Source of the DNA: Endomicrobiales bacterium
GTDB lineage: Bacteria; Elusimicrobiota; Endomicrobiia; Endomicrobiales; JAFGGC01
Length of the DNA: 64,000 nt
Direction of reading: 5' to 3'
NCBI GenBank assembly: GCA_016930715.1
Contig: JAFGGC010000002.1
Location: 1-64,000, forward strand
Part shown: positions 218-28,582 of the stretch, piece after piece
Position numbering within the stretch: position 1 is the first letter of the stretch
Layout: each line of letters opens with the position of its first letter
Notes under the pieces: model-generated
The model's database searches: none
Seen by the model: the letters and a program-made list of their open reading frames with translations, nothing else
Told to the model about the DNA's origin: nothing
Position numbers and translations under genes: made by a program

Positions 218-3200
218 ATGTTCAACAGGAACCTTTTTGTGGTTCTTTTAATATCCGGTATCGCCGGTCTTTTCGTGTTGGGCACGCCAAACCTCGACGG
301 ATACTATAGCCAGGACCCCGGCGGTTACGGGGGGGCGTACGGGTACATGCCTCCTCAGGCAGTGTCGATGAGCGCGAGCGCCGCCGAAGCCCACAAGGAA
401 GCGGAGAGATCGCGGGCGGCGGACAAGGGTTTGAGGACTACCACGCCGCCGTCTTCGACGCCGGGAGGTTCGAGCAGCAGTGATACCGGCGGAGCCAGAG
501 ACAGCGGCGAGAATAGCCCTAGCAAAAACGATAACGATGAAGAAAGGGAATACGAAAGGCAGACGAGGAGCTACGAGCGTTTTGTCGACGAGCGCATGGG
601 CGATATAGCCGGCCTTCTTCGCGAGCTTGAAGCTATGGGCGACCCCATCTTCGCCCTCAACTGCCTTGAATACCTTGCATCAGAAAAAGGCGTTGAACAT
701 ATAATGCAGCACATCAACTGGAGGTTTTCGGACGACTTCCTCGAGTTCATGGATGTCGAGGGCGAAAGGCAGGATTTTTCGGGCAGGGCCTGGTGGAACG
801 TGCATAAGGTGTGGTGCAAGAGAAAGGGTTTCGACCATCCGGCCGACACGGAACCCGGGGCGCTCGTCGATGGCGGAAGAAGGTACGATGAAGACGACAT
901 GGACACCTGGGCCAACGATCCCGAAGGCATATTCCGTCATTTCGGCAGCGACTACCAGGAACTTGCCCTGTTCCTGAGGAACTACTGCATAAACAAGCTC
1001 GATCTTGCCGCGGACGTTCTGGAACAGCTTTACGCGAGGGACCCAGCGGCTTTCAGCAGTCTGCTGGGGATGATAAACGAACCCTATTTCCTGAGAGATA
1101 TCGCCGGGAGGTTCACGAACGACACGCTTAAAGAGGCGCTGACCCGGAAGATAGAACAACTGGAAGAAGAGGTCCAGAACGCCATTGACAGGGCCACATC
1201 CTCGAACGGCAGGCTGAACTATGATGTCCTTGTCAGGGATTTGATGTACCGCCTCGGCCACGAATACACGGCGGTCATGCTCGGTGCCCTGATGAAAAGG
1301 GCGAACGGAAGCGAAGAAACCCGCCAGCTTCTCGGTTATCTCGGGAGCGCCCTCGGCGAAATGGGCGAAACCGAAGCCGTTCAGGAGTTTTTCCTGAAGA
1401 CCTGGGAAGCGGTGCTTTATTCCGCCGATATCAGCGCGAGCGAAAAAGCGGCGCTGAAAGAACGGCTGAGAGGGCTCATCGGGGATTTGGCCGATATAGA
1501 CAATTATGTACCGCCCCCGCGACTTCCTCCCGAAGACCCGAGCGTGCCCACCGACACTCCGGAAAACACGATAAAGCATTACGGCAGCAACCTGAACGGC
1601 CTTTACAAGCATTTGATGAAGATGGACACCTGGGAGGACATGCTTGAGGTCGTTGAAAAGCTTTACGAAAAATACGGCGCGGCCATAGTGGCCGACCTTC
1701 TTGACAGGATAGACAACCGGAACCTTCTTGACTGGCTTGCCCGGCACGCCAAGGCGGACGGCCTTGAAGGATTGTGCGAGGGCAAGGTCGCGAAACTTGA
1801 CGGGGACGTCAGCGGTCTGGACAGCGCTGATTCCATATCGGCGTTCTACGGCAAGGATTACGCCGCCATGGGCGACCACCTTGAAAAGCTGTGCGCGGAA
1901 AATCCGAGGCTTGCCGCCGAATTGATAGAGCTTATAATGCAGACGAGGGGCGAAGAAGCGCTTGTCGACCTTCTTTGTTCCATTGGGAGCAAGAGCTACC
2001 TTGAAACCGCAAGGAACGCCGTAGGCGACAGGTATATCAGGGGGTTATTGAACACGAGAATATCACGGATATCCGAGTACATTGACGACTTGATCGGAGG
2101 CATAACCACTTCCGGTCCGGACGAGCCGGCCTCGCCTTACCCCGGACATCCCGGCATCGAGGGTCAACCCCAAAACAACTATTCAAGCGCGATAGACGCG
2201 GTTCTTAACGACGGCAGCATGGCTTTCGCGGCGGATTTCGTGATAGCGTTGTACAATTCAAGTTACGGGGGCGACATAGAAGCATTTCTCGAACAGCTTG
2301 CGGGCGCGGTCCGGAGCGACGAACGCAGGGCAAAATTGTTCGCTTTCATATGGAGTACTATAGATTCAAGCCTCGGCCTTGACGCCGCCGCCAAAAAAAG
2401 GCTTAAAAAATCGATAGAACCTACAATAACGCAAAGCGGAGGCGAAGTGCCGAAACCAGTCGCGGGCGGCAGAAGCCTCGGAGCCGGAAATCCGGACGTT
2501 CCGCTGACGTCGGCCGAAAACGTGGTCATGCATTTTGGCGACGACCTGGGCGGCCTTATGGAATACATAGATTCGCACAGGGACGACATGAGGATGATAG
2601 GGATGATACTCGAAGAAGTGTACGGCAAGGCCGGCGCCGGGACATTAAGCGACCTGCTTGGCATGATAGATGACGCGTCATTTTTAAAAAGCCTGTTATC
2701 CGAACGTTTTTCGGCAGACAGCCCGGTAAAGGAAACCATTCAGGGCAGGATAGGTAAAATCACAGGCGATACCGGAATGCTTGATTCCGCCAACGCGCTG
2801 ATGGGATACTTTGGAAGGGACTTTCGCGAGCTCGCGCGGCTTCTTATTTCGGAGCTCGATTTCGGCCTTGCAAGGGAGGTCCTTGAGACGATATTGAACG
2901 ACTGGGGCGAGTTTGAATTCTCGTCGGTGCTCGAGCGCATAGGGGACACGTCGTTTTTGTTGGACGTATATGCCCGGACTGACAACGCCTATTTAGCCGC
3001 GCTTATAGAAAAACGCATCGGGGACGTGGGCGAGAGCATCAGTTCGGCCCTGAAAGCCGCGATCTCGGGCAAGGACGGTAAATTCAATGCGAGTTATATC
3101 GTCAGCAGGATGCTGAAACAGGAAGATTACGGTTTTAACGTTCAGCTTCTCGAGGCGATACTTGTTCAGCTTGATAACGCGGGGTCTTCAAGCGGCCTGC

Positions 3201-6043
3201 AGAAAGCAATGGAGGTCTGGGAAGAGTACCTGGAAAAAATGTCTCCCGCGATGAAGACTCAGGCCGCGACAAGGACTTACAACTGCCTCTTGCTTGATAC
3301 TATGGATACATACAAGAGGAATCAGCTTGAACAGATGTTCAGGCGTTTCGGCTGGATTGACGAGGGGCTTTTAAACGAGATAAGTAAAGGCGCTATGAAG
3401 TCCATCGCCGGCGATTCGACGGCATCCCTGGACGACTCGGGCGGAGTGGTGCGCCGTTACGGCAGCAATTACCGGGAGATGGGCGATTACCTCAGGGAAG
3501 AGTCCGACGCGGGCCTCACCGCCGAGGTAATGGAGCAGGTCCTGAAAACCAGGGGATGGGGCGCGGTATCGGTCCTGCTTTCGAACATTTCGAACACTTC
3601 GCTTCTGATGCAGGTGATGAGCAGGATAAAAGACCCCACGCTGCACAGGCTGGTGAACGACCGCGTGATGAACCTGAAAAACGGCACCAAAGAGCTTGTC
3701 TACGTCGCTACTAATAACGACGGAACGCTCAACTACGACACCATAATCCAGGGCATGCTCGACAATGACGACTACAAGTATAACGCCGACGTGCTCGACG
3801 CGGTCGCCAGGGCTCACGGCGCGGAGGCTGCCGGAAAACTCTGGGAGAAGTATATCGAAAGATGCCGCAGAGAAAAAAGGAACATAGAGGTGATCGAAAA
3901 AACCTATGCTGCCGCGTCTTCTGACCTGTTGGCCAACTCAACCGTTATAAATATATTGCGGAACGCCCGCAATTCCTACGCGGGCCCGGCAGGGGCCGGC
4001 GAAGCTGAAGCGGCAAAACCGACTAAGGCCGTCTCCGATTCTTCCCGGCTGGTTAACGCCTACGGCAGCGACCTCGAAGCCCTTTCGGACGAGCTCCTGG
4101 GCGCCGATGCCGAATGCGTCGGGGAAACTCTAAAGATAATAGCCAGCGAAAAGGGCGCGTGGGCGGTAAGGCAGATAGTTAATTCTCTCATCAAAAAGGA
4201 CAGGATTGAGCTTGTCGCTAACGCCGCCTACCTTTCCGGGGACATCAGGGTATACGAAATAATCGAGGCGCGGCTGAACGCGTACATGGCGGAACACAAC
4301 AAGAGTTTCGGCGGAAAACTGAGCGCCGGCGACGTGATCGCCTATTTCGGGGAAGACTACGCCGCGATGGGCATGTACCTCTGGAGCAATGGTGACGCGG
4401 GGCTCGCGGCGGACGTGATTAATATACTTTATAATTCACGCAACTACAGCGGAGTCGACGACCTGATAGGGACGATAGAGGACTCCGGTTTTCTTTATTC
4501 GATCGCGGACCAGATATCCAACAAGAACCTCGCGGATAAAGTCCGCGGCAGGGCAGGGGCGCTTGGCGGCGAAGGGTTCGGCGAAATGACGCCGGAAGTT
4601 GTCCTGGAATACTTCGGGACCAACTACGGCGAAATGGGGCAGTACCTCTGGGGCAACAATGACGCGGCGCTTGCCGCGAGGGTTCTCACGGCGCTGTTCG
4701 GGTCCGGGAAAACTGACGGCGCGCAGGCCGTGGTGGACAGCATCTTGAGCAAGGAGTTTCTTGGCGCAATAAAGGCGAATATTACAAACGGTGATCTGAA
4801 TGAAATGGTGGAAAATAAAATGTCGGAAGTGTTGAGCATGGATTTCCCCGCGGTGGCGGCCGAGATGAACGCTAAAGGCGATTATTCGTACAACGCCTAT
4901 CTCTTGTCGCGCTACATCGCAGACCAGAACTTCGGCGCGAGCGGCATGGAGAAATGCTGGGAGCTCATAGACCAGTACCTGAAGTATTTCGATACCGACG
5001 CGAAGAAAGTCGAAGCCCTGGCAAAGACCTGGGAGGCCGTGATAGAAATGCAGGGAGTCCCGGACGGCAGGAAAATAGCCGCGCTTAATATACTGGAGAT
5101 AAATATACGCATACTCGGCGCGGAACCTCCGAAACGCGACGTCAGCATGTTCAACGGCAATCCCGAGGCTGACCCGTCCACGCCGGAAGGCGTTATTGAA
5201 TACTTCGGTGAGGCTTATTATGAAATGGCGAAGTACCTGAAGCTGAACCGGGACGCCGCGATAACGGTGAAAACTCTCGAGAAGCTCGCGGAAATGAGGA
5301 ACCTGTCAGACGTGAGCAGCGTGGTCTCGAACATATCGGACATAAGGTTCCTGCTGAGGATTCTTGAAAAGACATCTAACAGCAGGATAAGGGACCTTGT
5401 GACCGAAAGGATAGCTTCCGTCAAGAGTTTTGAGAACCAGCTAATAGCGACGTTTAGCCTTGAGGACGGCCAGCTGCATTATTCCGCGATTGCGCAGGAT
5501 ATGTTCGAAAGGTGGGATTATTACTACGCCGCGGACGTCCTCACAATGCTTTTTGAGCACGGAACCAACAGGGATGACGGTCTTTCACACGTTGATAAGC
5601 TTCTTGGAGCTTTCACGGTGTTCCTGCAGCCCGAGGACGCGCCTGATTTTCTGGCGCGAACGTGGGTAGCGGTGCACAATTCATTGAACCTTTCGAAATC
5701 CGAAAAAACGGCGATAGAGGATGTTCTCGGAAGCTACATAAAAAAATTCAGCTGGGGTATTGACGAGTCGGTGATAGGCGAGGCGATAGATTACTTCAAG
5801 GAGGACTATCAGTCGATGGCCGGCTACCTGATGCAGAGCCACAGCAGCGACCTGGCGACGGCCGTGTTCGGCAGGATATACAACGATAAAGGCGGCGACG
5901 CCCTGAAATCGGCGTTAGAGTACATAGGCGACGCGGGTTTTCTCGTGGCGGTGATGTACCAGTCGCAAGACAGACATGTTTCCGAGCTTGTCAAAGAACG
6001 GGTCGAGTGGGTGAATTTGAACCTGTACGGAGGCGGGCAATGA
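218..6043 (+). CDS. Giant secreted alpha-repeat protein 1 (1,941 aa)
   Basis: I do not recognise the family. The ATG at 218 follows a GGGAGAAGG ribosome binding site and starts a clear signal peptide (MFNRNLFVVLLISGIAGLF). A Tyr/Gly-rich stretch with the motif GYMPPQAV and a charged Ser/Thr/Pro segment run to about residue 110, followed by a cap module (about 115-220). By eye, type 1 modules start near residues 237, 451, 540, 768, 859, 1076, 1278, 1371, 1461, 1657 and 1854. Type 2 modules start near 330, 653, 950, 1166, 1542 and 1749. Each type 1 module reads as about four short helices with an HFG/YFG-x-[DN]-Y start, as in an alpha-solenoid. The C-terminus ends in VEWVNLNLY, as in its paralogs. 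One type 1 module appears to be missing before residue 1166 compared with paralogs 3 and 4. It is probably exported to the periplasm or surface; its role is unknown. Confidence 0.9.
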   Translation: MFNRNLFVVLLISGIAGLFVLGTPNLDGYYSQDPGGYGGAYGYMPPQAVSMSASAAEAHKEAERSRAADKGLRTTTPPSSTPGGSSSSDTGGARDSGENSPSKNDNDEEREYERQTRSYERFVDERMGDIAGLLRELEAMGDPIFALNCLEYLASEKGVEHIMQHINWRFSDDFLEFMDVEGERQDFSGRAWWNVHKVWCKRKGFDHPADTEPGALVDGGRRYDEDDMDTWANDPEGIFRHFGSDYQELALFLRNYCINKLDLAADVLEQLYARDPAAFSSLLGMINEPYFLRDIAGRFTNDTLKEALTRKIEQLEEEVQNAIDRATSSNGRLNYDVLVRDLMYRLGHEYTAVMLGALMKRANGSEETRQLLGYLGSALGEMGETEAVQEFFLKTWEAVLYSADISASEKAALKERLRGLIGDLADIDNYVPPPRLPPEDPSVPTDTPENTIKHYGSNLNGLYKHLMKMDTWEDMLEVVEKLYEKYGAAIVADLLDRIDNRNLLDWLARHAKADGLEGLCEGKVAKLDGDVSGLDSADSISAFYGKDYAAMGDHLEKLCAENPRLAAELIELIMQTRGEEALVDLLCSIGSKSYLETARNAVGDRYIRGLLNTRISRISEYIDDLIGGITTSGPDEPASPYPGHPGIEGQPQNNYSSAIDAVLNDGSMAFAADFVIALYNSSYGGDIEAFLEQLAGAVRSDERRAKLFAFIWSTIDSSLGLDAAAKKRLKKSIEPTITQSGGEVPKPVAGGRSLGAGNPDVPLTSAENVVMHFGDDLGGLMEYIDSHRDDMRMIGMILEEVYGKAGAGTLSDLLGMIDDASFLKSLLSERFSADSPVKETIQGRIGKITGDTGMLDSANALMGYFGRDFRELARLLISELDFGLAREVLETILNDWGEFEFSSVLERIGDTSFLLDVYARTDNAYLAALIEKRIGDVGESISSALKAAISGKDGKFNASYIVSRMLKQEDYGFNVQLLEAILVQLDNAGSSSGLQKAMEVWEEYLEKMSPAMKTQAATRTYNCLLLDTMDTYKRNQLEQMFRRFGWIDEGLLNEISKGAMKSIAGDSTASLDDSGGVVRRYGSNYREMGDYLREESDAGLTAEVMEQVLKTRGWGAVSVLLSNISNTSLLMQVMSRIKDPTLHRLVNDRVMNLKNGTKELVYVATNNDGTLNYDTIIQGMLDNDDYKYNADVLDAVARAHGAEAAGKLWEKYIERCRREKRNIEVIEKTYAAASSDLLANSTVINILRNARNSYAGPAGAGEAEAAKPTKAVSDSSRLVNAYGSDLEALSDELLGADAECVGETLKIIASEKGAWAVRQIVNSLIKKDRIELVANAAYLSGDIRVYEIIEARLNAYMAEHNKSFGGKLSAGDVIAYFGEDYAAMGMYLWSNGDAGLAADVINILYNSRNYSGVDDLIGTIEDSGFLYSIADQISNKNLADKVRGRAGALGGEGFGEMTPEVVLEYFGTNYGEMGQYLWGNNDAALAARVLTALFGSGKTDGAQAVVDSILSKEFLGAIKANITNGDLNEMVENKMSEVLSMDFPAVAAEMNAKGDYSYNAYLLSRYIADQNFGASGMEKCWELIDQYLKYFDTDAKKVEALAKTWEAVIEMQGVPDGRKIAALNILEINIRILGAEPPKRDVSMFNGNPEADPSTPEGVIEYFGEAYYEMAKYLKLNRDAAITVKTLEKLAEMRNLSDVSSVVSNISDIRFLLRILEKTSNSRIRDLVTERIASVKSFENQLIATFSLEDGQLHYSAIAQDMFERWDYYYAADVLTMLFEHGTNRDDGLSHVDKLLGAFTVFLQPEDAPDFLARTWVAVHNSLNLSKSEKTAIEDVLGSYIKKFSWGIDESVIGEAIDYFKEDYQSMAGYLMQSHSSDLATAVFGRIYNDKGGDALKSALEYIGDAGFLVAVMYQSQDRHVSELVKERVEWVNLNLYGGGQ

Positions 6044-6088
6044 CGCGCAAAACCGTTGTCTATCAGGCAGGTAAAAGGCAAGAATATA

Positions 6089-6117
6089 TTGACATTTTAA
6101 GGTGTTTCTGTTATTTT
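6089..6117 (+). promoter_or_regulatory. Promoter candidate for second giant gene
   Basis: TTGACA at 6089-6094, a 17-base spacer, then TATTTT at 6112-6117. The -35 is an exact consensus and the -10 matches at 4 of 6 positions. It lies in the gap after the first giant gene, so the second giant probably has its own promoter with a leader of about 110 bases. Confidence 0.55.
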
Positions 6118-6181
6118 ATACCAGAGATGTCAACCCGTGCCGTACATACTATGATGGAATTTCCTGTCATAAATGATATTG

Positions 6182-6216
6182 AAGGGTTTTGCGCGAAACG
6201 GCGCGAGGCCTTTTTT
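6182..6216 (+). terminator. Hairpin plus T-tract in leader of giant gene 2 (terminator or attenuator)
   Basis: AAGG (6182-6185), one bulged G, and TTTTGCGC (6187-6194) can pair with GCGCGAGG (6201-6208) and CCTT (6209-6212) around a GAAACG loop, allowing G-U pairs. T's run from 6211 to 6216. It lies between the promoter candidate at 6089 and the ribosome binding site GGAGG at 6223-6227. It could end read-through from giant 1 or attenuate giant 2. Pairing was judged by eye. Confidence 0.4.
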
Positions 6217-6232
6217 GTTTCTGGAGGCCATC

Positions 6233-9200
6233 ATGTTCAATAAAACATTCCTATTAATTTTGGTCGGTTTCGGTATCGCCGGCCTGTTCGTGCTGGGCGT
6301 GCCCAACGTCGGCGTTTCCTATTATTCGCCTGGCGGCGAATACATTCCTCCTGCCGCGTTGTCGGCATCGTCGGCAGGCGCCGCCTGCGCATCGTCGGCT
6401 TCTGCGTCAGGGCCATCAGCGGCATCAGCATCAAGCGCGTCCGCGGCATCGGCTTCGGCCGCGGCGAGCGATGCCAACTACACGCCGTCAAGCTCCACGG
6501 CGCCGACAATGACCGCCGAAGAACTCGTGGACAGCTATACATCGAACGGGGAAATAAACATCGGGGGTTTGTGCTCCGCTCTCGAAGCGACCTGGGACGG
6601 CGACTACGGATACAAGGTTCTAAAAGTGGTCTGGGACCGGAAGGTAAAGGGTCAGTTCAATAGTCCGTACGCGATGAGAAAGGTGCTTAACGGACGTTTT
6701 TCGCTGGCGTACCTGCAGAAGATGGAGGAGGCCGCCACCGCCGCCTGCGGCGCCAACGGCGACAGGGTCTGGTACGGCCTGCACTTTGAGCTGCACCGCC
6801 GGGGCGCGGGACCGCTCAACGACGGAACGGCGATATGCGCGTGGATGACGGATCCCACGAAGATATTCAACAAATTCAAGGACGGTTCGCAAGTTGATTA
6901 CGACGATCTCGGTATTTTCCTTTTCATCTATAATGAAAGCAGGCCCAGGCTGGTGGGAGAAGCGCTTGAATGGATTGCCTTACACGGACAGGGGGGGGCG
7001 ATCACTTCTACCGTATATGAATGTAACAGCGTCACTTTTTTAAGGAGCATAAGATCGACTGTCACCAATCAGACGGTTCTGGACGCCATTAAAAACCGCA
7101 TAGACCAGATAGAGGAGCGCGTGGCCAACGAGGTCTCGCAGACGATGCTGGGCTGGTGGCGCTATGAACAGGGGAATCCCCTGCCAAACGATCCCAGGAA
7201 CCTCTCAGAAGTGTGCTCGCACCTTTCGCGGTACATACAGGACTCCGGAGGCAACAACGCCGAATTCGCGGTGAAGATTTTCATGGCAATGAGGAACTTC
7301 TCAAATGCTGAACACAATCAGACGGACAGCTGGGCGTATTACACGACGCTTGTTGGTTCTTATGCCTCGTTCCTGCGGAATCAAAACAGCGCGGAAGGGA
7401 CCTGCGCTTTTCTTACAAGGATCTGGAATGAGATGTATGTCCAGCCGCTGCCGATGTCCACTCTACAGCCGATGCTCGACCAGATAGCCAACAGGATAGT
7501 CTCATACGGCGGCACGAGGCCGACGCCTCCGGGAGGATACGACGATATTCCGGAAGATGATAGCGTGGAAGTGACCAGCGCGCAGACCTGCCTGCAGAGA
7601 TACGGTACGAACTATCAGGCCATGGCTTCTTATCTTGAATCGACAAAGCTCTACGAGCACGAGTTCCAGGCGGAGGTGCTGAGCGCGGTTCTCGGCCGGG
7701 GCAAAGCGCACCTTCTTGACCTTCTTCAGCACATGACAAAACCGAACCACCTTAAAGACGTCGGTGAAAAAGCCGGCGGCGACGTGGAAAAATACGTTGC
7801 CGGCCGCGTGGGAAAGCTAAAAAACGACGGCAGTGGCCGCAGGACGGCGGAAGGGGTGCTTGCGTATTATTACGACCAGTACAGCGCGATGGGCGAGTGG
7901 CTTGAGGGAAACACCAGAAGCGACAAGTTTTCGCTCGCGCGCAACACCCTTCAGCTTCTGTACTCGGTCCGGGGCAGAAGGGCCTGCATGGACGCAGTGG
8001 CGGGATGGGGCGCCGACATACTGCAGGGAGTGGCAAGGATAACGAGTGACGACAATGTAATGTCCGTTCTTGAAGCCAGGGCCGCGCAGCTGAACACGCC
8101 GCTTGGAGGGGGCATACAGGACATTGTTGGAAGATGCCTGATAGACGACCCTGAACAGACCGATCCCGCATACAAGCTGTTTTCCGCCCGGAAGTTCGCC
8201 GATGAGGTGAACTCATACGGCGACGCGAGCCTCGTGGTTGAGGCGCTTGTCGTCCTTCTGGCGGACAGCCAGTACGGCGGAATAACGGTGGTCGTAGACA
8301 AGGTGTTGCCCCTTTTAAACGACAAGACCGGTATTGCGCAGGCGGTCTGGCGCTCGAATATGATAGTCCAGGAGCACAAATATCGAATAATAGAGAAGCT
8401 GGTGTCTTTGGGGGCCGAAAGGCCCGGACCCCAGGCCGGCGGTTCACAGGGTGACATCAACGGCGACAGCAAGGCGGGGAGGGACACGCCTCAAGGGTTG
8501 CTCGACTACTACGGCAGCGACTATAAGACAATGATGGAATGGCTTGTGGCACACAAAAAAGACGACCCCGAGTTCTGCGCCGAAGTTTTCTCGAAGATAA
8601 TGGACGGAAGCCGCAGGGGAATGTGCGCGCTCGCCGAGGCGTTGAATAACCTGTACGACAAGGCATTTCTTGACGCCGTCAGGAAAAAGACCTCCGGCAG
8701 GATAAAGAACATGATAACGGCGCGAATCGACGAGTTGAACGGACAGCGCGCCGTCAACACGGCGGAGGGGCTGATAACCTTTTATTATAACGGCGAAGGC
8801 GGTCTTGATTTCTCAGGTATAGCAAATGCCGTCGTGGAGCGCCATAACGCGACTATGGCCGCTCGTGTGCTTGAAAACATCCTCCGCTATAGGGGCACGG
8901 ACTGGGTGATAGCCATACTCCAGCATATATCCGACCGTGCTTTCCTTGAGAGCATAATGAACGCGACAGAGAACGAAGACCTGCAGGTGCTTATAAGCCA
9001 GAAGCTCGACGGTTTGACCTATGACTTTCAGACGCTTATATACAGGAACTCGACCTACGACCCGATGACCGGGGAATTCACGCCCGACTGGGGCGCCATA
9101 GCCGCCGACTTGGCGCGCAGGGACGCGCAGTATCTTGTCGATTTCATAGTCTATTTCTGCAATAACTACTGCCAGATACCCGGAGTTGCTTTGGATATGT

Positions 9201-12823: not shown

Positions 12824-12858
12824 TAGGTATAGAATACTGATAAAAGAATTCATCGGGG

Positions 12859-17900: not shown

Positions 17901-20900
17901 AACGCCGACCTCGCCGTGGAAGTGCTCGAAATGCTCTACGCCAATTACGGCGAGTCCGCGGTTTCGGCTGTTCTCAATAATCTGTCAGACAGGTTGCTGC
18001 TGCAAAGGATAGCCGACAAGACCTCCAACGCCGTGATCCTGAGAAAACTAAACGAACGGCTCGGCGGCATCAACCAGGAAACCAACGCTTTCATTGAAGC
18101 CCTGCTCAAGGACTGGTACGACGGCAAGGAAAATCCGCGCCCCAACTATAGCCAGGCCGCAAGCAATCTTGGCGGGCACAATGATTTCCAGTACACCGCG
18201 GACATGCTCATAACGCTTCTCCAGCTGGACATTTCCCAGTTCCGTGGCGCCCCGGGCAACAGGGAACTGGTATCGGGTGTGTTCTCGGCCTGGCTGCCGC
18301 CCCGCGGCAACACCGCCTATCTTGACATACTTTCAAGGTTGTGGACATGCGTGCACAACGGCTCCGGCATAGACGGCGGCGACAAGGCCTTCCTACAGGG
18401 GCTGATAGAAGCAGCCATACGCGCAGGCGGCGGTTCCGTGCCCGACCCGACGGGCCTGAGGCAGATCCGCGGTAACCCCGACGCCGACAGGAACACGGTT
18501 GACGGCATGATAGACTATTACGGGAGCAATTATTCCGGCCTGGCCGGCGACCTGGCCGGCCGCGACGCCCGTTTCGCGGCACAGGTGCTCGAGAAGCTGC
18601 TTGACATGAGGGGGAGCACCGCGGTCACGGCGGTCCTGAACAACTACGGCGAAAACCGCCTGCAATTCCTGAGGGATGTGAGGGGCAGGGCTTCAAGCGA
18701 CGCCCTGAAGAGCGCCCTGGACGGCAAGATAGGCGCGTTGACCGGCGACAGGAGCTCTCTCAAGACCGCGGAATCTGTGCTGGCTTTCTACGGCGAGAAC
18801 TACATGGGTATTGCGCATTTCATAAGAGACGCCTGCCAGAACAACACGGCCCTCGCGCTTGACATATTGTCGACGCTGAAAAACGAGATAGGAAACAGCG
18901 CGGCGATGGAAGTCATAAACAACATATCGGATTCGCAGCTGCTGCAGAAGCTGATGAACGCCGCTTCCGATGGGGACCTTGCCCGCATGCTCGAGGAGCG
19001 CGCGGCGAGCATATACCAGCAGCAGGAAGGCCAGCTGAAGTTAAAGATACAGAACAAGGACTGGGTGTACGTCGCCGGCAACCTTGCCGAGAACAACGAC
19101 CCGGCCTACAACGCGGACATCCTGGCCATGATATTGAGGATGTTCGGTACCGGCGACATCAGCGCCTTCATGGGGCGCTGGGGGCCGCTTGTGGGCAACA
19201 ACGTGGACATACTGAACAGGACGCTGATTGCGGTTTACGCGAAATCGAACATTTCCGACTCGGATAAAGCCGCTATCGCCGGCATGTTGAGGGGATACGG
19301 GGCCACCGCGGACCCGATGCCTACGATAGGTCAGGACACTTCGGCCGACGTTACGACCGTAACCGGCATGCTCGCTTTTTACGGGAGCAACTACTCCGCC
19401 ATCGGCCATGCGCTTGACGAAAAAGCCGATGTGCTGTTCACCGTCGGTGTGCTCGAGCAATGCCTGCGCACGAGAGGACGCGCGGCTCTCGGGAGCATTT
19501 TGTACAACATGCGGCACACGGACCTGCTCAGGTCGGTGTACGGCATAGCCAACGAGAACGTGAAGCTGGCGGTAGCCGACCGTCTCACGGGCCTGGGCCA
19601 GGGCATCAACCCGGGCTACCAGGACTCCGTGGACCTAATCACGGCTATACCGGAAGAAGGGGATTCGAGCGTTCCCGCCGACACCGCCGCCGGCGTGATA
19701 CGCCACTTCGGCAGGGATTTCGGCGCCATCGCGAGCCATCTTTCCGGCTCATCGGCGGCTCTTGCGGCCCAGACGCTTGAGCTCATAATGGAGTTCGAGG
19801 GATCGGGGTCGGTCAAGCAGATACTGGAAGCGATGCTTCCTGATCCGCGTTCGGCGACACAGGGCGAGTACGACGCGTTCATGAGAAGGTACGACCTGCT
19901 GGTGGACGTGGCAAACAGCACGCAGAACCTGCCCTTGTACCAGGCGATAGTCCAGCGCATAGAAGCGGCCGTGGCCCAGGCGGAAAGGGTATTCGGTCAG
20001 GGCGTCGCCGCAGGCGAGGGAGGGGAAGGCGGCGAAGCGGTGGATCCAACTCCCCAAGACGTAATAGAGTACTTCGGTTCGGATTACGAAGGTATAGGAC
20101 AGTATGTCTGGGGCAACGGCGACCCGACGTTTGCCGTGAATACGCTCATGCTTCTTGACGGAGGAGGGATGCAGAAAGCGGTGGAAGCCATATTGAGCAG
20201 CGAGTTCCTCAGGAGCATGCTTGAAAAAGCGTCTGATTCCGGTTTGCGCGGCATGATAGAGGCAAGAATACCCATTGTCGAAGAAATGGAACACCAGGCG
20301 GCCGTGCCGATAGATTTCGATGAGATAGCCGGCGATATGTTCAAGAGGGGAGATTACACCTACAACGCCCAGATCCTCGCCGAATACATCGCCGACCACG
20401 AATACGGCGTGAGCGGGATGGAAAAATGCTGGATGATACTCGAAAAATATCTGGAGCTTTTTGACAACGATTCCAAGAAGGTGGAAGTCCTCATAAGGAC
20501 CTGGGAAGCCGTGAATTTCGAAGGTAGCATCCCTGACGGCCGAAAGATAGCGATACTGAACCTGCTCGAGATAAACGTGCGCATACTCGGGGCCGAGCCC
20601 CCAATGCGCGACATAACGATGTTCGGCGGCAACCCCGATGCCGACCCTTCGACGTCCGACGGCGTTATCGAGTATTTCGGCGAGGCATATTACGAGATGG
20701 CGAGGTTCCTGAAACTGAACCGCAACACGGACATAACGGTCAAGACGCTAGAAAAACTCTCGGAGCTCAGGAACCTTTCCGCCGTCAGCAGCGTGATCGG
20801 CAATATCTCGGACGTCAAGTTCCTCTTGAGGATACTTGAACAGACAACGGTGGCCGGCGTGAGGGACCTGATCACCGACAGGATAACCTCCGTCAAGCAG

Positions 20901-21512
20901 TTCCAGAACCAGCTCATAGCCACGTTCAGCTTCGAGGACGGGACACTTCATTACTCAGCGATTGCCCAGGACATGTTCGAAAGATGGGATTTCTATTATG
21001 CCGCGGACGTGCTCACTCTGCTTTTCAAGCACGGCAAGAACAGGGACGAGGGGCTGGATTACGTCAAGGGCCTTCTTGATTCGTTCACGATGTTCATGAA
21101 GCCCGAAGAGGCGCCCGATTTTCTGGCGCGCACGTGGGTAGCCGTGCACAATTCCCTGAACTTGACCGGCAGCCAGAAGAGCGCGATGGAAGAAATACTC
21201 GGAAGCTACATAAACAAGTTCAGGTGGGAACCGGACCAGGAAATGATCGGCCAGGCCCTGGACTACTTCGGAGAAGATTACCAGTCAATGGCGGGCTACA
21301 TTATGCAGACGGCGAACAGCGCCTACGTTTCCGGCGTGTTCGACGCCCTGTACAACGACAGGGGAGAGGAAGCGTTGCGGTCTGTAATGGAATACATAGG
21401 CGATGACGGCTTCCTCGTCGCCGTGATGTACCAGACCCAGAATCAGGGGGCCTCGGACCTCGTCAGGGAACGGGTGGAGTGGGTCAATCTCAATCTTTAC
21501 AACCAGGAATGA
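14934..21512 (+). CDS. Giant secreted alpha-repeat protein 3 (2,192 aa)
   Basis: Paralog of the other giants, of unknown function. GGAG lies at 14924-14927 before the ATG, and a signal peptide follows (MIKKICVLTALAVALFMVPG). Its N-terminal region is the longest and strangest of the four. It has Pro/Gln/Ser/Thr-rich sequence, ten Asn in a row near residue 85, Gly/Thr runs, and two Trp/Tyr/Thr-rich stretches (about 105-135 and 180-215) that could form beta-hairpins. The cap module starts near 249. Type 1 modules start near 347, 564, 652, 872, 969, 1190, 1280, 1477, 1586, 1708, 1909 and 2106. Type 2 modules start near 444, 749, 1068, 1375, 1793 and 2000. The C-terminus ends VEWVNLNLYNQE. The 204 bases upstream are AT-rich with no clear promoter. 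The Ser/Thr/Asn-rich region is a plausible glycosylation target for the adjacent PMT-like enzyme (inference). Confidence 0.9.
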   Translation: MIKKICVLTALAVALFMVPGDLMTAQKMFEDDGYMGRYGGPPSGWQPPQQQQPPQPTTSSPSPTSNPTTTTPPPAPNPTANNNNNNNNNNTNTTQTPQPPRTQTTWITTSFLTGGGGYTFWWTESYMTVITNNTVPTGGGGGSQPPTTHGAAGTGSGTGGGGTGSGTGGGTTGGTTSGGDRTYYSTYYSYSVVSTWTGGQYGWWVTFTTSWPYRIETITRLRPSDTSTTSESGWDSRYTPGASGQTADGVINHYTNNGTIDIDGLMSHVENTGDLKLAFEVLDSLRQNHGVNIRPILDSHWSKGFLQNVERWAYNTGHTGVTWQTILAACRGREPGYDPIGWDDTARGVIQHYTNGSNIDYRGLGYYIRDACQNNIQRAVEIFEDLWNNYSQSDLRDLLNNIHDRTLLGRIKNSTGGGIAEAIQDRMDALGSSTEGVVTLAFNRHPGDINAICNDIVDAMVSTNDMGYNASILLEVADKGGSAYVNGILSRLLSRIGSGDTGKDVFRRTWVRVCNGGGGASKGVVKGALEHYILNVLHTTLPDSGDPTDAHVNGNPNADRTKPAGCVDYYGSDYAGLANYITGQSPAFCASVLGELLGKRGSGVVIETLKHINNVGFLRNVKDADNASVEVKRLVDGRICQLTGEHSCFGTALGIISYFGDNYEGMAHHLRSALNVQLTVDVLETLIAGRGRGAAASVISYINNSAHLSDVYYSTGDADIRQMIIDKIGDLGDDLGNNYVNEHRKTDGSGSIDYDAIAGDMAAHNDFQYNADVLSICLSFEKRQNDPTYQEILNGILSAYSRIISGQPNNIKLDIYTRTYLAVFNSGMGDSNKQMVLGALRGYITQLGGTVPTPGTGTRLPNPDPEVSADTPDGFIRHYGNDLRALSNALREKSVDFALDVLKILNESYGGIPTVAEVAGYTWLSTNVDFLRELLAAAEEAGQTAIADVIKARIAYWSQNPSGLDTAEAFIGYYRQDYLRMAHHLRLTGNADLAVEVLEMLYANYGESAVSAVLNNLSDRLLLQRIADKTSNAVILRKLNERLGGINQETNAFIEALLKDWYDGKENPRPNYSQAASNLGGHNDFQYTADMLITLLQLDISQFRGAPGNRELVSGVFSAWLPPRGNTAYLDILSRLWTCVHNGSGIDGGDKAFLQGLIEAAIRAGGGSVPDPTGLRQIRGNPDADRNTVDGMIDYYGSNYSGLAGDLAGRDARFAAQVLEKLLDMRGSTAVTAVLNNYGENRLQFLRDVRGRASSDALKSALDGKIGALTGDRSSLKTAESVLAFYGENYMGIAHFIRDACQNNTALALDILSTLKNEIGNSAAMEVINNISDSQLLQKLMNAASDGDLARMLEERAASIYQQQEGQLKLKIQNKDWVYVAGNLAENNDPAYNADILAMILRMFGTGDISAFMGRWGPLVGNNVDILNRTLIAVYAKSNISDSDKAAIAGMLRGYGATADPMPTIGQDTSADVTTVTGMLAFYGSNYSAIGHALDEKADVLFTVGVLEQCLRTRGRAALGSILYNMRHTDLLRSVYGIANENVKLAVADRLTGLGQGINPGYQDSVDLITAIPEEGDSSVPADTAAGVIRHFGRDFGAIASHLSGSSAALAAQTLELIMEFEGSGSVKQILEAMLPDPRSATQGEYDAFMRRYDLLVDVANSTQNLPLYQAIVQRIEAAVAQAERVFGQGVAAGEGGEGGEAVDPTPQDVIEYFGSDYEGIGQYVWGNGDPTFAVNTLMLLDGGGMQKAVEAILSSEFLRSMLEKASDSGLRGMIEARIPIVEEMEHQAAVPIDFDEIAGDMFKRGDYTYNAQILAEYIADHEYGVSGMEKCWMILEKYLELFDNDSKKVEVLIRTWEAVNFEGSIPDGRKIAILNLLEINVRILGAEPPMRDITMFGGNPDADPSTSDGVIEYFGEAYYEMARFLKLNRNTDITVKTLEKLSELRNLSAVSSVIGNISDVKFLLRILEQTTVAGVRDLITDRITSVKQFQNQLIATFSFEDGTLHYSAIAQDMFERWDFYYAADVLTLLFKHGKNRDEGLDYVKGLLDSFTMFMKPEEAPDFLARTWVAVHNSLNLTGSQKSAMEEILGSYINKFRWEPDQEMIGQALDYFGEDYQSMAGYIMQTANSAYVSGVFDALYNDRGEEALRSVMEYIGDDGFLVAVMYQTQNQGASDLVRERVEWVNLNLYNQE

Positions 21513-21622
21513 ACAAAAGGGACAAAAGGACCGATAATGAAAATGGCGCCTTCGGTATGAGCTGGAAAAAGGCGCTATATTTTGTGCCGGGACAAAAGTT
21601 CAATAATATTTTTCAAATACTT

Positions 21623-21652
21623 TTTAAATATTTAACAAATCCCGCATATAAT
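21623..21652 (+). promoter_or_regulatory. Promoter candidate for fourth giant gene
   Basis: An exact TATAAT lies at 21647-21652, with TTTAAA at 21623-21628 as a weak -35 and an 18-base spacer. The ribosome binding site GGGAGA (21678-21683) and the ATG at 21689 follow. The -10 is good; the -35 may be chance in an AT-rich stretch. Confidence 0.4.
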
Positions 21653-21688
21653 TGTATCAGATGAGAAACGGTTCACAGGGAGAATGAA

Positions 21689-24600
21689 ATGAATTGGGGC
21701 AAGGTTATTCTGACTTTATCAATGTCGACCCTGATGGGTTTTTGCTGCCTGTTTTTGCCGGAACTGGACACATCCTGGGGCTATTACGGGCCCAATCACA
21801 ATCCGATAGGCGTCAACAGCGGTTATATGCCGCCTTCGGCGGTAGCTTCGGCATACAGCGCATCGGCATCGGGAACCTCGTCCCCTTCTCAGACATCATC
21901 GCCTTCGTCCTCTCCTTCGCCCAGCCCTTCATCCACGCCGAGCCCTTCGCCAACGCCCGCCGGCGAGGACGGCATCGACAACAGCAACTGGCATTCGATA
22001 ATGGACCACTTCTGGTACAAGAACGCCGACGGAACGCGAGCCGGATATAACCTCAACGCTATGGCGGCATACGTGGAAAAGTATCATCTGACCGTACAGG
22101 CCGTGAACATATACGCGAGCCTTATCGAGATGGGGAAATGTTCCAAGAACCTTTTCAAGTCCGTCGTGAGCCTCGGGTTCGCCAATGAGATGGAGGGCGT
22201 GGCGACGAAGCTGAAAAACGAGAATAGGTCCAACCCCTACTTTAAGAAAGTCTATGACTGGATAAAAGAGATACAGGGCGCCCGTTCCGACGAAGAGGGC
22301 TGGACCAAAACACCGGAAGGCATAATCGACCACTTCCTGACCTTCGGTGGCGCCAACAACAACAAGCTGGCTATGTACATTTCCGTTAACCTCTACGACA
22401 ACCCTTCGATGGCCGCCTCGGTATTGAACAAGCTCATAGAGGGCTACAGAACCTACAACTATATGTCGGCCATAGCCGTCGTCAACCTTATGTTTGACAG
22501 GAACGTTCTTGAAAGGATCCTGCCCAAGATAAAGCACGAAGCAGTCAAGGATGCTATCCAAAGCGCCATAGAGGACATAGTAAACAACAGCGTTGAAAGC
22601 ATAGTGGAGTCTTTTTACGTTAACGACGAGCTGGATAAGGCTTACGAATACTTTGGGACGGTCATGGCCAATTCGAGAAGCCCTAACTATATATCGAGAT
22701 TGGTAAAGCAGCTGGCGGATTATAGCGGCGACTATACATCTTGGGGCGAACTCGTGGAAAACTCACTCAACTGGTGCTTGAACGTGCTCACGCAGAGGGA
22801 CAGGATGGGAAACAGAGAGCTCATCAAGCTGTTCACGGATATATATGACGCCGTCGCCGCGAACGCGGGTCTGACCGGGGCCAAGAGGGAAATGCCGTTG
22901 AACATACTTGTCGACATCGTGACGAACAGGCTCGGCGGTCCCAACCCCGCCGCGCGTTCGGAAGGCCCGGGAGACAACCGGGACATAGTCACTCCCGGGG
23001 ACGTTCTCGCGCATTTCGGGGCAAGATACGCGGATATGGCCAGATACCTCGAAACTAACGATATAGTTGATGGGCAGAAGGGCAAAGGCGGTAACGGCGC
23101 TTTTGTCGCGAAGGTCATGAAAGAGCTGTTTGCTCAAAGGGGAGCCCGGGGCATATACAATCTTCTCGTGAATATGAACGCCGCCGGTTTCCTGAAAATC
23201 GTCAAGGAACAGCAGTACGCCTACACCGTGCGTAACTGGATAGCAGGGCGTATTGACGCCCTTACCAATGAAGGCGGAGGCAGGGGGATAGCCGAAGGGA
23301 TAGTTGTGTATTACCAGAAGGATTTTGCGACTATCGCCGCGCATATGCTTAACCTCAAGGATCCGGCGAAATGCGCCCAGGTCCTTGAATATCTTTATGA
23401 GATTCACGGCGGCGAGGGTCCGGCGCTGGTGGTGGCGAATATAATAGACGTGGCCCTTCTTGACGCCATACGCGAACATGCGACGGCGAGGGTAAGGAAG
23501 ATAATTGAGAATTTCATCGGGGCCATCGATGACGATATCGCGGGGTACTCGAAGGGCAACAGGGACATAGTGCTCCGCCACGCGACATATAACGCCGACA
23601 CGGGAGAGTATTCTTTCACGGAAAAGGATATACAGGAATTCGCGGCGGAGCTTGTGGGCAAGAATGCGTTATACGTGGAGAAGGCACTGGCGCTGGTCCT
23701 GAGGTACACCTTCGCCGGCGACCAGACGCCGGAAGATGTTGTCACGCGAGTGCTGTCGGCGCTATTTGACAAGGTTAACGATTCGAACACCCCCGGTCTT
23801 GGGATAAGGATAGGTATGGGCCCCGCGGTCGAGCTTATGACCCAGATACTTGTCTGCGTGAAAACGGACATGAGCATCGGGGCCGCGGAACGCGAGTTCC
23901 TGAGGGGTCAACTGCTGAAACTTTTCGCGGACGATAATTACAGAGGCGCGACCTCCGGGTACCAGGCGGATATCGCGCCGGATGCTTCAGTGACCGACCT
24001 GAGAACGCCCGAGAACCTGCTCAGGCGCTGGGGAAGCAGCTATCAGGATATAGCCAACTGGCTGGTCAACAACGGCAGGGCGGATTACGCGGCAAAAGCG
24101 TTTGAGCTGATGCTGGCCGATCCGCGCTACGGAGAAGGAGCAGTGGCCGACACTCTCGCGTATATTTCAGACAAGGATTTCCTGTCAGCCGTAAAACAGA
24201 TAAGTGGCCTGCCTAAGGTCATAGCCGACATGATAAACGGGCGGCTGGCGGCCCTTGGCGCGGTTCCACTTGCAAGGACCGTGGGCGGCGTACTGGCTTA
24301 CTACGGGAGCGATTACAAGAAGATGGCGGAGTTCCTGGGCGGCGTCCTGGACCCGGAACTGACAGGGGGAATACTTGAAAGCGTCCTTGCTTCCAAAGGC
24401 GCGATAGCAGTTGCCGAGCTTGTTTCATACATTAATAACGACGAGCATCTTACTGCCGTGTACCAGAGAACCCAGAACGCAATGCTGCGGAAGCTCCTCG
24501 CGGACAAGATAGACGGGATAGCCATTCAGATATCGCAGTTCCTGACGGAAAGATACATAACCCGCGATGAAAATGGACAGATAACCGGCCTCGACCTTAA

Positions 24601-27600
24601 AAAGATAGGGGAGGTCGTGGCCGCTGCGCAAGACCCGCAGTTCGCGGTCAGGGTTCTTGCCGAAGTCTACAGGATAATGCATCTAGATACGCCGCCTCAC
24701 GATTTTTCGAAAGTCGACTGGTGGCACGTGACCGGGACAGCCGGTCTAATGGCTTTCGATTACAGCGAAGAACAGGATGTTTTTGCCGCGATACTCGCCA
24801 ATGCCGTGATGTCTATGAATCTTGACGATAACGAGAAGAACGAGTTCTTCAGGCGGGTATATCTAGTCGCCTATAACAGCGTGTCGATCCCAAGGTCGGT
24901 CCGCGACATCATTATGTCGGCGCTGGCCAATTGCTTCCTGGTGGTTGACCCTTCGACGGGTCTTCTGGACAACGAGAACCCTATCATTGAACCTCCGGTG
25001 GCGCCGGGCAACCCGAACGCTGACAGGAACACGCCCGCTGGTTTAGTTGAGTATTGGGGGGGCGACTATTCTGGAATGATATCGGAATTAACAGGCAGAA
25101 GGAACGACCTGAACTTCGTCGCTCATGCATTCAACGCGATATACGAGAGACGGGGCATGCAGGGCGTTCTCAGGGCTCTTGGATGCGTGAACCTGAACGA
25201 AGTCGGTCTGCTCCAGAGCATCCGCAAGATGGTCGGTTCAAGAGAGCTCACGCAGATGATAGACGGCAGGATCGCTAAGCTCCTCAACAGTACGGATAAC
25301 CTTAACAATGAATACGCTTTTATATCATATTTCGGCGGGGATTACGCTCTCATAGGTACGGCTCTCAGGGACGCACAAAATCACGTGTTCGCGGAAAAAG
25401 TGCTATCGGCGCTGCTGTCGGGAGTCGGAGAAAACGCCGTGAAGCTTGCGCTCCAGAGCATCTCGACCGCGTGGCTTCTTGAAAGCATGCTCAATTACAC
25501 CAAGAACGTGGAACTGGCTACCCTTATAAGCGTCAAACTTGGCTACATACAAACCAGCTTGATCGGCGAGATAGACAGGATACTCGGTGACGCGGATGAG
25601 CTGAATCGCGCCGGCAAGATAGCCGAGTTGCTGACCGAATCGGGCGACATCAGGCTGATAGCCGAAACGGTAGTTGTCCTGGCCTTCAACGGTTCAGGCC
25701 ATCAGAGATTGAGAGAAATGATGGTTCTTTTGATAGGCGGCGTCGAAGAATCTGGGAGAAAAAATTACCTGCAGTGGATACTGGAAGCCGTATTCGAAAG
25801 TCCCAACGCGTCCACGGGCGCCAAGATATGCGTGCTGGAAGTTTTCAACAGCCTTGGCTGCGGAACGTTCGAGGAACCCAAGATCAAGACCGTGGAGGGC
25901 GACACAACGGTGAACCCGGGCTCGAGCGTAGAGGCCTGCCTTGAGTATTTCGGTACGGATTATCACTCGTATTCTCCTTGCACGGGATACGGGGGAATGT
26001 CCGCTTTCCTGGTAAAGAAAGCGGATGCCGTGTTCGCCGCTTTGGTTTTCGAAGCTGTTTACAGAAACGGAGGCCGGGCCCATCTTGCCGACCTGCTTGC
26101 CGGCATCGGGGACGAGGTCTTGCTTCAGGCAGCGCTTTCCACGCTCAATCGCGGGGGGCCGGTGGTCGCGATGGTGGAGGAACGCCTGAAGTTCCTGAGA
26201 TATGAGGCTAACGTGGCCGGAGGGGTTGGAAACGTTCCGTCGCGTTACTCATACAATACGCACGTCGCTTATTTTGGCGGCGGTCAGGTGTCCGACTTGA
26301 CGACGCCCGCGGCTATAATGTCTCATTACGGGACGAATTATTACGCGATGGCGGCGGCTTTCCACACTTTTGGCGTTGACCTTGGCAGGCAGCTGCTGGA
26401 GGCCCTGATAGCCACTCGCGGAGTTCTCGGAGCGAGGACGCTTCTTGCGCTTATCGGCCCAAGCGACGTGAACTTGCTCATCCAGATAGCCTATTCTACA
26501 GGTGAATCCCAGCTCATGGATATGCTTACCGAAAGGATTGCCGATATAATGAGCGGCGCAAGTACCGGTCCGCTGACGCCCGGGAACGTGATGGATTATT
26601 TCAAGGACGATTACAAGGCTATGGGTGAGTACCTCTGGGGCGTCGGCGACGCGGACCTCGGAGCCGGAGTGCTCAAGGCCCTGGCCGACGCGGGCAACAC
26701 GGAAGGGGTCGCCGCCACCCTTGAAGGCGTGTGGGGAGAGGAATTCCTCAGCCAAATCGCGGCGCTGGTCCAGAGCGCAAGCCTTATCGAGGCGATAAAC
26801 GCCAGAATAGAATATGTAGCCGAGCACTACGCGGAATACGAGGCCGCTTCGATCATAGAGTATTACGGGACGGATTACAAGTCCATGGGTATGTACGTAT
26901 GGTTCGCCGACGAAACAGAGATAGCCGTTGAGTTGATAAAACAGCTGGCAGCGAAAGGCGCCGCGGCACAAAAGGCAGCCATTGACGCCGTCATAAGCAG
27001 CCAGTTCCTGTCGAAAGTTGCCGAGGCGATGGACGACCAGTTCCTAAAAGAAATGATAGAGGCCAGGATACCGGACGTGATGCGCAAGGTGGATTCCCTG
27101 TCCGCCGGCGACGTGATAAGCCATTTCGGAGAAAGGTATGAGTTTATGGCGTATTTCCTGATGAGCTATGGCGACGTCGGGCTTTCCGCCGGGGTGTTTG
27201 AGAAAATACTCGCGCTCGGCAAAAGCGAAGCCGCGGGTAAAGTCATGCTGGTAATGACGGTCGATTTCCTGGAAAGCATCAAAGGGTCCACCTCGAACGC
27301 GGCGCTTATCGCGCTTTTAAACCAGAAGATATCCGAATTGCAGAGCAAGGCTCAGAATCCGGATACGGATGTTCCGTCCGAAATTGATTTTCCCGCGATG
27401 GCGAATCAGATGTACCAAAAAGGCGACTACCACTATAACGCGCAGCTTTTGGGGCTTCTAATCATAAACAACAAGTATAACAGCAGCGGGATGGAAAAAT
27501 GCTGGGAGTTGATAGACCAGTACGTTGGAAAATTCGGCCACAAATCCAAGAAAGTCGAAGTGCTTATCAAGACGTGGGAGGCCGTCAATATGCTTGCGAG

Positions 27601-28582
27601 CATTCCAGACGGCCGCAAAATCGCGTTACTCACGGTGATAGAAATAAACATAAGAATCATGGGTTTCGAACCTCCCCAGAGAACGGTGGCTATGTTCAAC
27701 GGCAATCCGGACGCGGATCCGTCAACGCCTGAAGGGATCCTGGAACATTTCGGCGGAGCGTATTATGAGATGGCCAGATACCTGAAGCTTAACCGCGACG
27801 CGGAAATTACCGCCAGAACGCTGGAAAAGCTCGTTGAATTGCGTGACGAATTCGCCGCTAACAGTGTCATAAGCAACATTTCGGACATCAGGTTCCTGCT
27901 AAGAATAATAGAGCACACGGTTTCTCCTGTCATCAGGGAACTCGTCACCGCAAGGATAACGGTTGTCAAGCGGTTCCAGGACAAGCTTATATCAACGTTC
28001 AGGACGGAGGGCGGCAGGCTGCATTATTCGGCGATAGCGCAGGACCTTTTCGAAAGATGGGACGCATATTTTGCCGCGGATGTCTTGAGCATGCTTTATA
28101 AGCACGGAGCAAACGCGGCTGCCGGTATCAAAAATATTACGGAGGTTCTTGATTCAATGACTATGTTCCTTCAATCGGACAGCCCCGATTTCCTTGCTAT
28201 GACATGGGTAGCGATTGACAATTCCCTGAGCCTCTCCTCATCGGAAAAGAGCGCCATAGAGAACGTTTTGGGGGAATATATCAAAAAATTCAGGTGGCAG
28301 CCGGACGAATCCGTCGTGAGCGGAGCAATGGATTATTTCCGGGATGATTATCAAATGATGGCCGGCTACATAATGCAGGAGGGTAACAGCACCTACGCGT
28401 CCGTCATCTTCGATAGGCTTTACAACGACAGGGGAGAGCAGGCGCTGGATGCGGTCCTTGAATGCATCGGGGACAACGCTTTTCTCGTGGCCGCGATGTA
28501 TCAGATGCAGAACGCACAATCGGCGTTGTTCGTCAAGAAGAGAATAGAATGGATAAATTTAAACCTGTACCACGGCGAATGA
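21689..28582 (+). CDS. Giant secreted alpha-repeat protein 4 (2,297 aa)
   Basis: The longest of the four paralogs, of unknown function. The ATG at 21689 follows GGGAGA and starts a signal peptide (MNWGKVILTLSMSTLMGF). The GYMPPSAV motif shared with paralogs 1 and 2 follows, then a Ser/Pro/Thr-rich mucin-like stretch (about residues 55-90) and a cap module (about 100-200). Type 1 modules start near 210, 437, 536, 775, 866, 1117, 1209, 1416, 1542, 1633, 1720, 1807, 2015 and 2212. Type 2 modules start near 306, 637, 962, 1303, 1900 and 2107. It has more consecutive type 1 modules before the C-terminal block (1416-1807) than its paralogs, consistent with internal duplication. The C-terminus ends RIEWINLNLYHGE. 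A strong terminator follows directly. Confidence 0.9.
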   Translation: MNWGKVILTLSMSTLMGFCCLFLPELDTSWGYYGPNHNPIGVNSGYMPPSAVASAYSASASGTSSPSQTSSPSSSPSPSPSSTPSPSPTPAGEDGIDNSNWHSIMDHFWYKNADGTRAGYNLNAMAAYVEKYHLTVQAVNIYASLIEMGKCSKNLFKSVVSLGFANEMEGVATKLKNENRSNPYFKKVYDWIKEIQGARSDEEGWTKTPEGIIDHFLTFGGANNNKLAMYISVNLYDNPSMAASVLNKLIEGYRTYNYMSAIAVVNLMFDRNVLERILPKIKHEAVKDAIQSAIEDIVNNSVESIVESFYVNDELDKAYEYFGTVMANSRSPNYISRLVKQLADYSGDYTSWGELVENSLNWCLNVLTQRDRMGNRELIKLFTDIYDAVAANAGLTGAKREMPLNILVDIVTNRLGGPNPAARSEGPGDNRDIVTPGDVLAHFGARYADMARYLETNDIVDGQKGKGGNGAFVAKVMKELFAQRGARGIYNLLVNMNAAGFLKIVKEQQYAYTVRNWIAGRIDALTNEGGGRGIAEGIVVYYQKDFATIAAHMLNLKDPAKCAQVLEYLYEIHGGEGPALVVANIIDVALLDAIREHATARVRKIIENFIGAIDDDIAGYSKGNRDIVLRHATYNADTGEYSFTEKDIQEFAAELVGKNALYVEKALALVLRYTFAGDQTPEDVVTRVLSALFDKVNDSNTPGLGIRIGMGPAVELMTQILVCVKTDMSIGAAEREFLRGQLLKLFADDNYRGATSGYQADIAPDASVTDLRTPENLLRRWGSSYQDIANWLVNNGRADYAAKAFELMLADPRYGEGAVADTLAYISDKDFLSAVKQISGLPKVIADMINGRLAALGAVPLARTVGGVLAYYGSDYKKMAEFLGGVLDPELTGGILESVLASKGAIAVAELVSYINNDEHLTAVYQRTQNAMLRKLLADKIDGIAIQISQFLTERYITRDENGQITGLDLKKIGEVVAAAQDPQFAVRVLAEVYRIMHLDTPPHDFSKVDWWHVTGTAGLMAFDYSEEQDVFAAILANAVMSMNLDDNEKNEFFRRVYLVAYNSVSIPRSVRDIIMSALANCFLVVDPSTGLLDNENPIIEPPVAPGNPNADRNTPAGLVEYWGGDYSGMISELTGRRNDLNFVAHAFNAIYERRGMQGVLRALGCVNLNEVGLLQSIRKMVGSRELTQMIDGRIAKLLNSTDNLNNEYAFISYFGGDYALIGTALRDAQNHVFAEKVLSALLSGVGENAVKLALQSISTAWLLESMLNYTKNVELATLISVKLGYIQTSLIGEIDRILGDADELNRAGKIAELLTESGDIRLIAETVVVLAFNGSGHQRLREMMVLLIGGVEESGRKNYLQWILEAVFESPNASTGAKICVLEVFNSLGCGTFEEPKIKTVEGDTTVNPGSSVEACLEYFGTDYHSYSPCTGYGGMSAFLVKKADAVFAALVFEAVYRNGGRAHLADLLAGIGDEVLLQAALSTLNRGGPVVAMVEERLKFLRYEANVAGGVGNVPSRYSYNTHVAYFGGGQVSDLTTPAAIMSHYGTNYYAMAAAFHTFGVDLGRQLLEALIATRGVLGARTLLALIGPSDVNLLIQIAYSTGESQLMDMLTERIADIMSGASTGPLTPGNVMDYFKDDYKAMGEYLWGVGDADLGAGVLKALADAGNTEGVAATLEGVWGEEFLSQIAALVQSASLIEAINARIEYVAEHYAEYEAASIIEYYGTDYKSMGMYVWFADETEIAVELIKQLAAKGAAAQKAAIDAVISSQFLSKVAEAMDDQFLKEMIEARIPDVMRKVDSLSAGDVISHFGERYEFMAYFLMSYGDVGLSAGVFEKILALGKSEAAGKVMLVMTVDFLESIKGSTSNAALIALLNQKISELQSKAQNPDTDVPSEIDFPAMANQMYQKGDYHYNAQLLGLLIINNKYNSSGMEKCWELIDQYVGKFGHKSKKVEVLIKTWEAVNMLASIPDGRKIALLTVIEINIRIMGFEPPQRTVAMFNGNPDADPSTPEGILEHFGGAYYEMARYLKLNRDAEITARTLEKLVELRDEFAANSVISNISDIRFLLRIIEHTVSPVIRELVTARITVVKRFQDKLISTFRTEGGRLHYSAIAQDLFERWDAYFAADVLSMLYKHGANAAAGIKNITEVLDSMTMFLQSDSPDFLAMTWVAIDNSLSLSSSEKSAIENVLGEYIKKFRWQPDESVVSGAMDYFRDDYQMMAGYIMQEGNSTYASVIFDRLYNDRGEQALDAVLECIGDNAFLVAAMYQMQNAQSALFVKKRIEWINLNLYHGE

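Follow-up and report, generated by a model that had tools for sequence, protein, structure and literature searches.

A cluster of four tandem giant genes for modular, predicted alpha-repeat proteins, with an embedded O-mannosyltransferase gene, in an Endomicrobiales bacterium

At the start of contig JAFGGC010000002.1 of an Endomicrobiales bacterium, four very large genes follow one another, and the question that they raise is what kind of protein they encode and what such proteins might do for the cell. We analysed the first 64,000 nucleotides of the contig, referred to here as the window, together with the rest of the genome and its relatives.

The gene cluster and its modules

The giant genes are four head-to-tail open frames (218-6043, 6173-12823, 14934-21512 and 21689-28582) which encode proteins of 1.9-2.3 kaa, each containing a cap, both repeat types and the common C-terminus VKERVEWVNLNLY or close. 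In this respect the open frames and the HMMs bear out a preliminary description of the locus. That description had also presented four head-to-tail genes filling almost all of 28 kb; the four genes are there, but the run is interrupted between giants 2 and 3 by the gene of a protein O-mannosyltransferase (PMT). Neither this embedded gene nor a small cap protein located beyond the range then described (28716-29366) had been mentioned. The parts of the cluster are the following, A and B being the two repeat modules.

218-6043 (+): giant 1, 1941 aa, 214 kDa, pI 4.7; hydrophobic N-terminus, linker, cap, 11 A and 6 B modules
6233-12823 (+): giant 2, about 2196 aa; Ser/Ala-rich linker, 13 A and 6 B modules
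12918-14729 (+): protein O-mannosyltransferase (GT39), 603 aa, between giants 2 and 3
14934-21512 (+): giant 3, 2192 aa; 218-aa Thr/Asn/Gly/Pro-rich linker, 12 A and 6 B modules
21689-28582 (+): giant 4, 2297 aa; Ser/Pro linker, 14 A and 6 B modules
28607-28630 (+): terminator-like hairpin, 10 pairs and a T-rich tail, directly 3' of giant 4; consensus match only
28716-29366 (+): small fifth paralogue, 216 aa from the ATG (ORF from 28623); exported-looking leader, linker and cap module alone

The ORF of giant 2 taken from 6173 has 2216 aa; its start was placed at 6233 because an RBS there precedes an N-terminus that resembles the one of giant 1.

Further along the window, at 33030-36143, a 539-aa protein with a marginal Glyco_hydro_57 match adjoins the gene of a trypsin/PDZ (HtrA-like) protease, one protein combines LysM, FecR and Glucodextran_B domains (37841-39355, minus strand), and positions 58142-62961 hold Flp/Tad pilus genes encoding RcpC/CpaB, a T2SSE ATPase and two T2SSF proteins.

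Module HMMs were seeded on the two repeat motifs given in the preliminary description. The A module has about 82 aa and six predicted helices and is found in 50 full copies across the giants (11, 13, 12 and 14 in giants 1 to 4 by ordered HMM matches), while the B module has about 120 aa (about 110-130) and five helices and occurs 24 times, exactly six per giant. All four giants share the layout cap-AB-AAB-AAB-A(1-3)B-A(3-5)B-AB-A. In 80 shuffled versions of the giant proteins the A-module HMM gave no match at E<1e-4.

The locus had been described as having two interleaved repeat types. Both are present, but they are not separate: the A-seed HMM scores 17 of the 24 B regions at 4 bits or more, compared with 0.05 expected from shuffles, and hhalign joins A with B at 93.9% probability over 54 columns. 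These profile comparisons make A and B homologous, two variants of a single module, and rule out two unrelated repeat types. A genome-wide search found the module confined to this cluster within the 2.30-Mb genome.

The first and the last A of a block form weakly distinct subtypes (permutation, 0 of 2000), and A modules average only about 23% mutual identity. This value means that they are not collapsed or inflated repeats, which bears on the possibility of an assembly or gene-calling artefact of repetitive DNA. The assembly is indeed a draft in 45 pieces, and the contig starts 217 bases before giant 1; the frames nevertheless stay open for about 2000 codons with the codon-position pattern of real genes, and we give such an artefact practically no weight.

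The last approximately 480 aa of the giants show 42-63% identity between paralogues. Compared by position, the blocks from the fifth B onward are 51-58% identical, against a background level of 13-28% upstream, where position-wise orthology of modules between giants was not detectable. The constant end consists of the blocks B-A-B-A, conserved in all four paralogues, and paralogue comparison places it as follows.

4835-6040 (+): constant C-terminal end of giant 1
11609-12820 (+): constant C-terminal end of giant 2
20301-21509 (+): constant C-terminal end of giant 3
27377-28579 (+): constant C-terminal end of giant 4

Codon differences in this end are much more frequent at the third position (0.52-0.59) than at the second (0.20-0.35), so that purifying selection, rather than recent gene conversion, maintains it.

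The small fifth paralogue was compared with a cap HMM built from giants 1-4 only and reached 28.2 bits (E 6e-11 for one sequence), whereas the best of 2000 shuffles reached 6.4 bits. Its claim to kinship rests on the cap model, because it ranked second among 2001 under a clean A model and fell outside the top four under a clean B model.

Predicted fold and distant relatives

Two segments were modelled with AlphaFold: the C-terminal ABABA stretch and the following unit.

18480-19346 (+): A-A-B unit of giant 3, 17 helices, pLDDT 88.5

The A-A-B model, from an alignment of 13 units, is all helical with a pTM of 0.64. The ABABA model, from four sequences, has a pLDDT of 77.5 and a pTM of 0.51, and six-helix A and five-helix B modules alternate regularly in it. 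The giants are thus predicted to be all-alpha solenoids, apparently open-ended. Structure prediction had been suggested earlier as a check on the repeats, and its outcome was a confident alpha-helical repeat array, neither disordered nor non-repeating.

Pfam, NCBIfam and PDB sequence searches assigned neither module to a family, in agreement with the earlier remark that no named family has these repeats. The only TPR, HEAT or ARM match by Pfam was TPR_6 in giant 3, at 18.7 bits (cut-off 26.3). Profiles A1, A2 and A4 found nothing in PDB below E 0.007, a value that belongs to a short stretch of Colicin-E1, and no ligand-binding or enzymatic domain was found in the giants. Foldseek searches of both models against PDB and viral models gave no match at E <= 0.001 (best 3.1e-2 and 3.5e-3). 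The highest-ranking hits, none of them significant, were to designed helical repeats and to proteins of the TPR, HEAT and ARM types, as would suit a cytoplasmic alpha-repeat scaffold of TPR/HEAT-like type in which the N-terminal hydrophobic stretch is incidental. We regard this as very improbable, since that segment recurs in all four giants, in the small paralogue and in a homologue from another genome, Ser/Thr low-complexity linkers follow it in the giants, and a PMT is encoded within the cluster.

The module is not limited to this locus. Among 341 genomes of the phylum, distant homologues were found in only three others (G004, G002 and G006), all of the same order, and the remaining genomes gave no module match at E <= 0.001. 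An A model built from the window only detects the first two, with one-sequence E values of 1.7e-9 (G004) and 1.5e-10 (G002) and genome-wide values of 3.4e-5 and 2.2e-4. The third is matched only by the A4 profile, which includes the G004 and G002 modules; its two short adjacent copies lie in different frames (L070 7009-7460, G006:C31) and are apparent remnants of a lost gene. Alignment of the C-terminal end retrieved no close relatives from GTDB r220 contigs, and IMG/VR, phages and plasmids yielded no relatives either.

G004 is Elusimicrobia bacterium RIFOXYA2_FULL_47_53, which encodes a single exported-looking module protein of 1282 aa (MGVE01000020.1). Like the giants, of which it is a true homologue, this protein has an N-terminal hydrophobic segment, a linker and about ten divergent modules. 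Unlike theirs, its gene is single, in a genome without a PMT, and no constant C-terminus or A-A-B layout was recognised in it. In its surroundings (L052 4729-13885), a Porin_O_P gene lies upstream of it, and genes for a sigma-54 activator and for sigma-54 lie downstream.

In G002, three module copies are found inside a 12,189-aa ORF with Peptidase_C39-like and Hint domains (L053 12928 onward, G002:C1). By analogy with this ORF, the giants could be secreted effectors or predation or host-interaction proteins acting on another cell, and huge proteins, enriched in Elusimicrobiota, may go with host association (PMC11573180). However, Pfam and NCBIfam searches with the window proteins turned up no domain of a toxin, protease or Hint type, the whole body of the giants consists of the module, and no immunity-like gene was seen. 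We consider an effector role unlikely.

Export, linkers and the embedded O-mannosyltransferase

Each giant has a single strong N-terminal hydrophobic segment, with nothing comparable elsewhere in the protein. A signal peptide had been reported as common to all four; the hydrophobic segment is indeed in each, but a clearly shared leader and juxtamembrane segment, with the motif [GE]Y[MI]PPxA[VL] after the hydrophobic stretch, joins giants 1, 2 and 4, and the leader of giant 3 differs. A stretch GIAGLFVLGxPN is conserved in giants 1 and 2. Giants 1, 2 and 4 show no clear AxA cleavage site, and neither a sorting motif nor an anchor for the cell wall or the outer membrane could be identified in the giants.

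The low-complexity linkers contain 24-38% Ser/Thr (the lowest case, 24%, being giant 1), compared with 10-12% in the rest of the proteins; the giants thus carry the Ser/Thr-rich, presumably exported segment expected of a PMT substrate. The product of the embedded gene matches PMT_4TMC (5.5e-19) and PMT (2.7e-16), both over the cut-off, and its best PDB match is the yeast Pmt2 structure 6p25. A second PMT of this genome, 32% identical, is encoded beside a DNA ligase on contig C22. The motif FWDEIG of the cluster enzyme is aligned with FDEVYY of the second paralogue. The PDB alignment did not span this region, which is where the acidic DE motif of the first extracytoplasmic loop would be expected. 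In both paralogues (12918-14729; L074 9175-10965) about 150 extra residues follow TM1 and precede the DE region; this unusual extracytoplasmic segment may be a discoidin-like beta domain.

PMT_4TMC was found in one of the 40 order relatives searched, namely this genome, and over the cut-off in four of the 341 genomes of the phylum. If two PMT genes were placed at random in 2303 kb, one or both would land within a given 28.4 kb with a probability of about 2.5%, and for this reason the link between the PMT and the giants, an association known from one genome, is suggestive only.

The explanation that we favour, giving it about an even chance, is that the giants are exported alpha-solenoid rods with Ser/Thr-rich, probably O-mannosylated tethers, a constant C-terminal end and variable bodies. 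Export would be of the Sec type, after which the N-terminal segment would either be removed or stay on as a membrane anchor. Next to it, the S/T/P/A-rich linker would form a stalk, probably O-mannosylated by the PMT of the cluster, and the cap would start a continuous solenoid of 17-20 modules. The constant B-A-B-A end could be a shared interface for assembly, for pairing of paralogues or for attachment to a common envelope partner, and the diverged bodies would provide four variants that differ in surface and in length. Such rods would most likely serve as a multivalent scaffold or adhesin, at the surface or in the periplasm.

The same leaders could instead belong to a scaffold anchored in the inner membrane that never leaves the periplasm, its linker spanning the wall zone and its solenoids holding or spacing envelope complexes. 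The lack of an AxA-like site and the GIAGLFVLGxPN stretch of giants 1 and 2 fit an uncleaved signal anchor, and no outer-membrane export device is tied to the cluster. A helical hairpin adds about 1 nm, however, and the solenoid length estimated on this basis, tens of nm, exceeds a normal periplasm unless the rods are coiled or lie flat; the linkers, moreover, are mucin-like, a type commoner on surface proteins. A purely periplasmic scaffold therefore seems to us possible but doubtful. It is rather improbable, on a par with the effector role, that the exported rods form a glycoprotein coat of a new type, a surface lattice in which the four solenoid giants would assemble through their C-terminal ends and stand on O-mannosylated mucin-like stalks, with the small cap protein as nucleator or cap.

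Comparison with known systems

The module of this locus defines a protein family that Pfam and NCBIfam do not contain, and it comes from a phylum known for huge proteins that are uncharacterised and lack COG assignment (PMC11573180). The giants are also a clean natural case of how very large proteins evolve: one end stays constant while the repeat body diverges freely.

The models, helical and regular, suggest consecutive helices stacked into an open-ended solenoid, the arrangement of TPR, HEAT and ARM alpha-solenoids. The giants differ from these in having units of 5-6 helices instead of 2-3, no Pfam match above the cut-off, and Foldseek E values of at least 3.5e-3 with TM at most 0.3.

For Actinobacteria, bacterial PMTs are described as modifiers of exported proteins (PMC11727336, PMC12757957). 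The giants resemble actinobacterial GT39 substrates as exported-looking proteins with S/T/P/A-rich linkers in a genome with a GT39 enzyme; they differ in their host, a member of the Elusimicrobiota, in the extra extracytoplasmic segment of the PMT, and in that glycosylation is here inferred. Linker and PMT together are a concrete candidate for a substrate and its enzyme in O-mannosylation beyond the Actinobacteria, which have been well studied.

Giant1-5 of Apilactobacillus kunkeei are likewise giant extracellular proteins, whose five genes follow one another and have diversified within a single cluster (PMC12863079). Those proteins, in contrast, have 3,000-8,000 aa, come from a Gram-positive organism and include a predicted beta-solenoid domain at the N-terminus of Giant1-4, and no sequence family shared with them was shown. 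Embp of Staphylococcus epidermidis, a proven fibronectin-binding adhesin, is also a giant exported protein whose many alpha-helical repeats make a rigid elongated rod (PMC7587433). Embp is, however, a single 1-MDa protein with F/FG repeats that are paired triple-helix bundles, and our searches found no PDB sequence or fold match for the modules of the giants. No result assigns the giants to either group; by analogy, they may work like Embp or like the giants of A. kunkeei.
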